The position numbers were made by a program, and so were the translations under genes. Under the pieces are notes generated by a model that was not told the origin of the DNA, did no database searches, and saw nothing but the letters and a program-made list of their open reading frames with translations. Shown here piece after piece: positions 4,986 through 43,726 of a stretch of DNA of 64,000 nucleotides; the first letter of the stretch is position 1; every line of letters begins with the position of its first letter. The DNA is from Methanoculleus receptaculi (GTDB lineage: Archaea; Halobacteriota; Methanomicrobia; Methanomicrobiales; Methanoculleaceae): contig NZ_CP137642.1 of the NCBI RefSeq assembly GCF_033472595.1, positions 1,240,001 through 1,304,000 on the forward strand, read 5' to 3'.

Positions 4986-5399
4986 CTCCCGCCCGCCTCC
5001 CCCCTCACCACAGACATCCCTGAACTGGCGTAGGGTGGTGGCAAGGATGCGTGTCTTGCCTATCATTCCGGCGATCAGGAGGACATCCAGGATCTGTTCC
5101 GGCGAGGCACCCTCCTTCAGCGCGGCCCCCATGTGAACCTTCAGGCAACTCTCCGCTCCTGCGCCTGCCGCGGCCGCAACGGCAACCAGCTCAGCAACCT
5201 TCGGGTCGAGAGAATCAGGCCGGGAGATCCGATAATCGGCAAGAGCGGAGAGAGCAAAGACCTCAGGGCGTTTGCGCAGCACCCCGAAGATGAAAGGCAC
5301 AACCCCGAGCATCTCCCGGACATCCTCTGTGATCTCATCGCTGAGGTCGTCGGTCTGAGCAAGGAAATCTTCTACAAGTTTTTCGGTATCGGGTTTCAT
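4983..5399 (-). CDS. Carboxymuconolactone decarboxylase-like (AhpD-fold) protein
   Basis: A 138-residue protein from the ATG at 5399, preceded by ggggaaagga. It shows the CMD-family helical core, with DSLDPKVAELVAVAAAAGAG followed by ESCLKVHMGAALKEGASPEQ, and a single Cys in the position where active AhpD members have a CxxC pair. Without the second Cys, classic peroxidase-reductase chemistry is unlikely. Longer starts would run into thiC. It lies 60 bases downstream of thiC on the same strand and may be co-transcribed. Specific function unknown. Confidence 0.75.
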   Translation of the reverse strand: MKPDTEKLVEDFLAQTDDLSDEITEDVREMLGVVPFIFGVLRKRPEVFALSALADYRISRPDSLDPKVAELVAVAAAAGAGAESCLKVHMGAALKEGASPEQILDVLLIAGMIGKTRILATTLRQFRDVCGEGGGGRE

Positions 5400-38691: not shown

Positions 38692-39873
38692 TTAGAAATC
38701 GGTCATGATCCTGAACTGGTCAACCTCTTCGGTGTTAAGTTCTTCCAGGAACTCTTCAGCTGCATGTTTGATATCCTTGCTTGCGGTGATGGCCCGGCCA
38801 ACAACCAGGATATCAGCGCCCGCCCTGAGTGCCTCTTTCACAACATGCTGCCGGATGCCGCCCGCGGTCGCGATCAGCATCCTCTCACCGCCTGCCTTCC
38901 GGATTGCCGGAATATCGCCCCAGGCGTAATCGGTATCCTCGATGTCGATAGCCCGGTGGAGTTCAACAACATCCGGCTTCACCTTCAGTTGCCCGATGAC
39001 GGCGACCGGGTCACTGACGTTGAGCATGTCAAGCACGCTGTAGATACCGGTCTTCCGGGCTTCCTGGATGGCCTTCTCAATCGTCGATAGCGGGGCGAGA
39101 CCGGAGATCACAACGGCGTCAGCACCGGCGTCAGCAGCCATGCGGGTCTCCAGGTTCCCCGTATCCAGCGTCTTGAGGTCGGCGACTATGAAGGAGCCTG
39201 GCCTGATCTCATGGATCTCGGAGATGATCGAGAGTCCAAACTTCTTGATAAGAGGTGTTCCGGCCTCGAGGATCAGGTGGTCGCTCTCCGGCAGCTCCTC
39301 GAGGACCTTCCGCATATGGTTCCTGTCAACAAGGTCCATCGCAACCTGCAGGTATGGGGGGTTCCAGAGACGCTGAACCTTGAATCCCATTACGGCATGG
39401 GTTGCCCGATCTTTCTCGTGAAGGAGCGTATCGACGTCAGGGAAACGATCGAGCGCCCGGCGGATCGCGAGTTTCGTCGCGCCGTAGTTGAACCTGTATA
39501 ACTTGTTGTAGTCCTCTGCAGTTGGGTGGACAAAGACGCTTGCCATGATGACGATATCCTCGATATCGATCCCCTCAAAGGCACCCTCCTCCACCAGGTC
39601 GGCGACGGCCTTTGCCACAGCTGACTGCACAGGCCCGAAGATCTGGTTCACCTGATACTCTTTCTTCAGGGTGACCTTCGGGATGATGATGGTCGAGGGT
39701 TTTGCAGGCAGGTTTGGCCTTACTACCGCAAGAAGCGGGGTATGGCCTTTGGAGAGGTGGGAGAGGGCGTTTGCAAACGCCTGCCCCACAGGTCCTTCTT
39801 TGTTTCCCATGATCAGATCTACGTGCGCAAGTTCTGCGCCGTCTCCAACCAGTGCTTCGCCGATGAGATACAT
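38692..39873 (-). CDS. Fae-Hps fusion: formaldehyde-activating enzyme/hexulose-6-phosphate synthase
   Basis: A 393-residue bifunctional protein. Residues 1 to about 165 are Fae, joining formaldehyde to tetrahydromethanopterin, with the catalytic His17 in DGAELAHVDLIMGNK. Residues from about 168 are a hexulose-6-phosphate synthase TIM barrel (LQVAMDLVDRNHMRKVLEEL, FIVADLKTLDTGNLE, ATAGGIRQHVVKEALRAGAD). In methanogens the Hps half runs toward ribulose 5-phosphate and formaldehyde, feeding pentose synthesis and the reductive hexulose-phosphate cycle. The length is standard for the fusion. Confidence 0.96.
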   Translation of the reverse strand: MYLIGEALVGDGAELAHVDLIMGNKEGPVGQAFANALSHLSKGHTPLLAVVRPNLPAKPSTIIIPKVTLKKEYQVNQIFGPVQSAVAKAVADLVEEGAFEGIDIEDIVIMASVFVHPTAEDYNKLYRFNYGATKLAIRRALDRFPDVDTLLHEKDRATHAVMGFKVQRLWNPPYLQVAMDLVDRNHMRKVLEELPESDHLILEAGTPLIKKFGLSIISEIHEIRPGSFIVADLKTLDTGNLETRMAADAGADAVVISGLAPLSTIEKAIQEARKTGIYSVLDMLNVSDPVAVIGQLKVKPDVVELHRAIDIEDTDYAWGDIPAIRKAGGERMLIATAGGIRQHVVKEALRAGADILVVGRAITASKDIKHAAEEFLEELNTEEVDQFRIMTDF

Positions 39874-40182: not shown

Positions 40183-40336
40183 TGGGGTCGGTGAGATTTG
40201 AACTCACGATCGACGGGTCTCTCCGAACATGCATCAGTGCTCCAACGGGTCATCATCCGTCAATCAGGAGACCCATTGTTCATCATGTGCAAAGACCGCT
40301 GGAGCCCGTCGCCATTCCGGACTAGGCCACGACCCC
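40183..40336 (-). tRNA. tRNA-Trp (CCA) with 80-base intron
   Basis: Exons are 40336-40299 and 40218-40183 and join to a 74-base tRNA. The acceptor stem is GGGGTCG/CGACCCC and the anticodon arm is ACGGG-CTCCAGA-CCCGT. The intron falls at the canonical 37/38 site. A perfect bulge-helix-bulge is visible: CTCC of the anticodon loop pairs with GGAG of the intron, flanked by 3-base bulges AGC and AGA, where the splicing endonuclease would cut. No CCA is encoded. A TATA-like cattatgc lies about 30 bases upstream. Confidence 0.95.
40219..40298 (-). ncRNA. Box C/D guide RNA inside the tRNA-Trp intron
   Basis: The intron holds box C ATGATGA (40280-40286), box D' CTGA (40264-40267), box C' ATGATGA (40250-40256) and box D CTGA (40234-40237), all read on the minus strand. 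The D guide pairs with GCTCCA of the anticodon loop, and the base opposite its fifth position is C34. The D' guide GGGTCT pairs with AGACCC, placing C39 at the fifth position. This parallels the tRNA-Trp intron of Haloferax, which directs 2'-O-methylation at positions 34 and 39 of its own tRNA. Confidence 0.9.
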
Positions 40337-42535: not shown

Positions 42536-43726
42536 ATGATCGTTTCCTACAAGTACCGGGCGTATCCCGATGCAACCGTGGAAACACGGCTGAACACTGC
42601 ACTTGATACCTGTAGGTGGCTCTACAACAAACTTCTCGAAGAATGCAACACGGCAGCACGAGAGGGTGGGATCTCTCCGACGATGCGGGGAACGCAGGCG
42701 CGGATCGTCACGCTGAAAGAGGAGAATCCTGCACTCAAGGACGTATACTCTAAAGTGCTCCAGATGGTCAACTATACCCTCTGGAGCAACATCGCTGCAC
42801 TCTCGCAGACAAAGAAGAGAGGACGGAAGATCGGCAAACTCCGATTCAAGAGTGCAGCCCGATACCGGACGCTCAATTATAATCAGTCGGGTTTCAAGAT
42901 CGATCGCGAGCGTAGTTCGATTACGTTCTCGAAGATCGGAACGATTCCGTTCAACATGCACCGACCCTACACCGGGAAGGTGAAGGGTGTCCTGATCACC
43001 CGTTCCGGCGATAGATGGTATGTGATCATTCAGACAGAGCAGGAGGTCTACAAGTCAAAGCGTGAAGGGCAGTCTGTCGGTATCGATGTCGGGTTGGATT
43101 CGTTTGCGGTCGATAGTGACGGTGCAGTGATCGAGAACCCCAGGTTCTATGAACATTCTCTTGGCAGGATCAAGAAGATCCAGCGGAGTCTTGCCCGGAA
43201 ACAACGGTTCTCGAAAAACTGGAAGAAGGCAAAAAGGAAACTGGAGAAGGTCTATGATCATGTCGCCAACCAGAAGAACGATTTCCTGCACAAACTCTCC
43301 CGTCAGTACGTTGACACCTATGCGACGATCTGTGTTGAAGACCTGAATATCAAGTATTTGAAAGAGAACGGCAAATCTCGCGGGCTCCGGAGAAGTATCC
43401 ACAGTGCGTCGTGGGGACGATTTTATTCTTACCTCTCGTACAAGGCTGAAAGTGCTGGTACGGAACTCGTCAAAGTCGATCCCCGCGACACGACACAGAT
43501 GTGTTCGAACTGCGGAAGCATCGTGAAAAAGACGCTCTCCGAGAGAGTCCACGAATGCCCATACTGTGGGTTTGTTGCCGATAGAGATTACAATGCTGCG
43601 GTGAATATCCACCGCGTGGGGATGGAACAGCCCTTTGAGCCTGTGGAGCCAAGACCTCTACATCACATCTCTGTGGTGCAAGTGTTGGCCATGAAGCAGG
43701 AAGCCCCGCCCGAGAGGCGCGGGTAG
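42536..43726 (+). CDS. tnpB: TnpB, RNA-guided nuclease-type IS605 OrfB
   Basis: A 396-residue TnpB of normal size. It has an N-terminal helical region, the RuvC residues in SVGIDVGLDSFAVDSDG (Asp), ICVEDLNIKYL (Glu) and DRDYNAAVNIHRVG (Asp), and the zinc ribbon CSNCGSIVKK with CPYCGF. All three catalytic acidic residues are present, so it could be active. TnpB proteins use an RNA copied from the element's right end to cut DNA beside a short motif. The omega-RNA would overlap the end of this gene and continue into the flank. Confidence 0.95.
   Translation: MIVSYKYRAYPDATVETRLNTALDTCRWLYNKLLEECNTAAREGGISPTMRGTQARIVTLKEENPALKDVYSKVLQMVNYTLWSNIAALSQTKKRGRKIGKLRFKSAARYRTLNYNQSGFKIDRERSSITFSKIGTIPFNMHRPYTGKVKGVLITRSGDRWYVIIQTEQEVYKSKREGQSVGIDVGLDSFAVDSDGAVIENPRFYEHSLGRIKKIQRSLARKQRFSKNWKKAKRKLEKVYDHVANQKNDFLHKLSRQYVDTYATICVEDLNIKYLKENGKSRGLRRSIHSASWGRFYSYLSYKAESAGTELVKVDPRDTTQMCSNCGSIVKKTLSERVHECPYCGFVADRDYNAAVNIHRVGMEQPFEPVEPRPLHHISVVQVLAMKQEAPPERRG

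Follow-up and report, generated by a model that had tools for sequence, protein, structure and literature searches.

A tRNA-Trp intron of Methanoculleus receptaculi carries a box C/D guide RNA of a known family, predicted to methylate its own tRNA

We analyzed a stretch of 64 000 nt of Methanoculleus receptaculi DNA (the window) and found that the 80-nt intron of its tRNA-Trp gene has the anatomy of a box C/D guide RNA. Very probably it is an ortholog of the tRNA-Trp intron of Haloferax and Pyrococcus, a dual box C/D sRNA that would guide methylation of C34 and C39 in the tRNA that it interrupts. The find is real but ordinary, since the arrangement is well described in archaea and is present in most relatives: the intron is almost certainly a known kind of element of minimal novelty, with predicted methylation of its own tRNA. 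Its value lies mainly in the clean comparative set that it opens, in which guide base and nucleotide 39 change together.

The tRNA-Trp gene and its intron

The tRNA-Trp(CCA) gene occupies positions 40183–40336 of the window on the minus strand, with the intron at 37/38. RF00005 matched 40336–40183 on this strand with 48.9 bits, its anticodon loop being interrupted by a long insertion. RF01133 (sR3) matched within the intron, also on the minus strand; the coordinates and strand of the gene given in an earlier note, made from the sequence alone, were right. From sequence and splicing, exon 1 (nt 1–37) is placed at 40299–40336 and exon 2 (nt 38–73) at 40183–40218, both minus, leaving a mature tRNA-Trp of 74 nt after splicing. 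ARAGORN, as applied here, did not call the tRNA-Trp gene, presumably because of the intron. A scan for sigma-70 promoters found nothing, the sigma-70 model being unsuited to archaea. The window also encodes, at 38692–39873 on the minus strand, a fusion of formaldehyde-activating enzyme with a HUMPS-family protein (PF08714, PF00215); an IS605 OrfB/TnpB-family protein (PF01385, PF07282, PF12323) is encoded near the tRNA-Trp gene at 42536–43726 on the plus strand.

The exon–intron boundaries can be folded into a bulge-helix-bulge (BHB) motif, which the earlier note had called perfect. The outer helix (ACGGG/CCCGU), the 4-bp central helix (CUCC/GGAG) and the two 3-nt bulges (AG^C and AG^A) all follow the canonical pattern. 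The inner helix (GG/UC), by contrast, has only 2 bp and is followed by an internal loop. Constrained to the BHB, the bare RNA folds with −58.6 kcal/mol (ViennaRNA), against −61.8 kcal/mol for the unconstrained minimum, a difference of 3.2 kcal/mol. Given the short inner helix and a fold above the minimum, we describe the motif as canonical in its core but weak in its inner helix.

The intron itself (40219–40298, minus) matches RF01133 at 40290–40232 with 60.6 bits (E 5.4e-14), compared to a gathering score of 41, and in a search of the whole genome the match was still over the cut-off with 48.1 bits. All elements were read from the sequence of the minus strand. Box C (AUGAUGA, 40280–40286), which also aligns to sR3, is followed by the D' guide ACAAUGGGUCUC (40268–40279), box D' (CUGA, 40264–40267), box C' (AUGAUGA, 40250–40256), the D guide CCCGUUGGAGCA (40238–40249) and box D (CUGA, 40234–40237). 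The full C-D'-C'-D set claimed before for the 80-base intron is thus present. On the box C side the 5' arm UGCA (40288–40291) pairs with the 3' arm UGCA (40230–40233) on the box D side; such a UGCA/UGCA stem flanking boxes C and D is the expected k-turn layout. Boxes and family match place the intron in the known family of self-guiding tRNA-Trp introns.

Compared to the RF01133 sR3 family, the window intron has the same boxes and nearly identical guides (GGGUCU by D' and CCGUUGGAGC by D). Four additional bases lie between D' and C'; apart from these we see no difference of kind.

Pairing of the guides with C34 and C39

Under the box+5 rule, C34 (40302, minus), the wobble base of the anticodon, is the partner of the fifth base from box D, and C39 (40217, minus) that of the fifth base from box D', so that Cm34 and Cm39 are predicted. 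The pairing bears out the same assignment of the two guides in the earlier note. The D' guide forms an unbroken run of 9 pairs with the precursor (GAG^ACCCGU), of which the mature tRNA keeps 8, with one G.U; these are exactly the figures given before for its pairing with exon 2. That account had overlooked, however, that the D guide spans a splice junction as well: across the junction of exon 1 and intron it forms 10 pairs with the precursor (GCUCCAG^CGG), one of which is G.U, and in the mature tRNA 7 are left. Both guides therefore pair across splice junctions, and splicing costs the D guide 3 of its 10 pairs. As only 7 pairs, one of them G.U, are left to it in the mature tRNA, methylation of C34 may need the precursor.

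With shuffled 12-nt guides, pairing to the exons as long as that observed arose in 1.9% (D') and 0.7% (D) of cases. Far stronger evidence than these statistics comes from the Rfam E-value and from how well the intron is conserved. Most archaeal C/D sRNAs target rRNA, and it could be argued that the main targets of this intron lie there too, the match to its own tRNA being a by-product; the D' guide indeed has an 8-bp match in the 16S rRNA at position 1042. The best matches of both guides in 16S and 23S rRNA (8–9 bp) are no longer than those of shuffled guides, while the matches to the tRNA lie precisely on 34 and 39 and covary with it. We therefore regard this explanation as extremely improbable and reject rRNA as an alternative target of either guide, having found nothing beyond what shuffled guides yield.

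Conservation and covariation among relatives

Of 295 genomes sampled across the phylum, 168 had an RF01133 match, among them 53 of the 55 that are listed for the order. A search with exon 1 of the tRNA-Trp, which is independent of the intron and thus leaves intron loss and divergence visible, gave a match in 275 of the 295 genomes. We compared 173 distinct introns of at least 50 nt, taken from the phylum sample and from named loci (Methanomicrobiales, Methanothrix, Methanosarcinales, Archaeoglobus, ANME-2 and Methanohalarchaeum). The pattern used for fetching the named loci fixed the D guide and left the D' guide and nucleotide 39 free, so that the named set is uninformative on the conservation of the D guide. 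The nearest named DNA, from M. sediminis (L106), matches at ∼85% over ∼3.2 kb.

The reading of the earlier note implied that boxes and guides should be conserved across Methanomicrobiales, and both are kept in almost all relatives, with a guide base that covaries with nucleotide 39. A D' call was obtained for 171 distinct introns. Of the 139 with C39, 138 have a guide G; of the 32 with U39, which is found in haloarchaea, 26 have a guide A and 6 a guide G. These D' calls are not fully independent, as the downstream D' box was picked partly by pairing. A first automatic calling had misplaced the haloarchaeal D' boxes because of a CUGA inside the guide itself, and it was redone with the downstream CUGA/CCGA box. 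When guides were swapped between the C39 and U39 classes the pairing became worse, falling from 8.0 to 5.3 bp for C guides and from 6.6 to 0.6 bp for U guides. A second covariation links the first nucleotide of the intron to position 9 of the D guide (C-G in 138, A-U in 28, U.G in 1 and a mismatch in 1 of 168 introns), which supports the pairing across the junction of exon 1 and intron. Since there are few independent switches, chiefly between haloarchaea and the rest, the covariation backs the pairings but does not amount to many separate tests.

These data bear on two further explanations. The boxes might resemble C/D motifs by chance in an ordinary spliced tRNA intron, and two relatives (L186 and L184) do keep a BHB-type or a short intron that has no working guides. 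With an Rfam E-value as low as that of the window intron and both guides conserved across the order, this explanation is refuted in practice, and we give it almost no weight. Alternatively, the C/D RNA could still guide C34 while its D' side is non-functional and C39 is left unmethylated. Degenerate D' boxes or shifted D' guides do occur in some relatives (L187, with the box CCGGA, L049 and L097), but the window has a canonical CUGA as box D', its D' guide forms 9 and 8 pairs, and across the phylum this guide is both conserved and covarying; loss of the D' side is thus very unlikely here. We retain the reading of a dual guide for C34 and C39.

Known systems, proposed mechanism and natural losses

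The intron shares with that of Haloferax volcanii the host tRNA, the intron position, the box C/D dual guide and the targets 34 and 39. The H. volcanii intron is 103 nt long and guides Cm34 and Um39 (PMC7994747, PMC4090602, PMC7714728), in agreement with what the earlier note had stated for Haloferax, and its self-methylation was reported as demonstrated (PMC7994747, PMC4090602, PMC11408192). According to reviews, its guides act in trans and sequentially, deletion of the intron abolishes both methylations with normal growth in standard conditions, and circles of the tRNA-Trp intron were found in Thermococcus and Haloferax (PMC7994747, PMC4090602, PMC11408192, PMC9014305, PMC7714728). The haloarchaeal introns sampled here have U39, begin with AGG, carry CUGAUAUA or CUGGUAUA as the D' guide and often have CCGA as D boxes, whereas the window intron has C39, the D' guide GGGUCUC, CUGA boxes and the intron start CGG. 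In a control list, the RF01133 model did not detect H. volcanii. Pyrococcus sR50 is likewise a C/D sRNA formed by the intron of pre-tRNA-Trp and directed at that same tRNA (PMC7994747), a likeness by description to the window intron. The self-guiding tRNA-Trp intron extends across Methanomicrobiales, with C39 replacing U39 as the second target. The novelty suggested before for Cm39 is weak, as C39 with a guide G is usual in the sampled non-haloarchaeal introns and a 2018 review table already lists ‘Cm34 and Um39 (or Cm39)’ (PMC6313347).

Fibrillarin and a Nop-domain protein are encoded side by side in the same genome, which also encodes two L7Ae-family proteins, a two-domain splicing endonuclease (tRNA_int_endo) and RtcB. 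From published relatives we infer RNP assembly, methylation, the order of events and circularisation as follows. The intron RNA would assemble with L7Ae, Nop5 and fibrillarin, either in the precursor or after excision, and the D guide would direct 2'-O-methylation of C34 and the D' guide that of C39 in the same tRNA species. The splicing endonuclease would then cut the BHB at 37/38, the exons would be joined by RtcB, and the excised intron would probably be circularised as well. Since the first nucleotide of the intron covaries with the D guide, it is conceivable, although we consider it rather unlikely, that methylation of C34 is limited by design to the unspliced precursor and that the intron serves as a timing device and not as a free guide acting in trans.

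Natural losses (introns without guides, shortened introns or none at all) could show whether both methyl groups matter, a point that the published Haloferax deletion does not settle. In one genome of the same order (L186, G238:C66:26539-26955) the tRNA-Trp intron has 96 nt and has kept its BHB ends, but no guides are recognisable and RF01133 gave no match; judged by these features, self-guiding was lost naturally here while the intron stayed in place. In another relative (L184) the tRNA-Trp intron is shortened to 23 nt. An intronless tRNA-Trp that keeps C39 was observed in more than one family of the phylum, at L200–L209, L211–L213, L216 and L217 (family codes f10, f11 and f19).

A Methanoregula MAG (L047) has a decayed second tRNA-Trp on the minus strand (match 5181–5202), ∼1.2 kb from the normal gene, in which exon 1 is gone and exon 2 has diverged while the C/D boxes and guides are intact; possibly it is a guide RNA freed from its tRNA. 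In a genome of the same order that is 99% complete (G164), neither the exon pattern nor a DNA search found a tRNA-Trp, which points to an assembly gap or a divergent gene. Another genome (G120) carries two differing tRNA-Trp genes, a Methanosarcina-type and a Methanomicrobiales-type one (L231 and L232), from contamination or transfer. Finally, the intron on a contig labelled Bathyarchaeota JdFR-04 (L066) has guides that resemble those of Archaeoglobus, and the label is possibly a binning or naming error.
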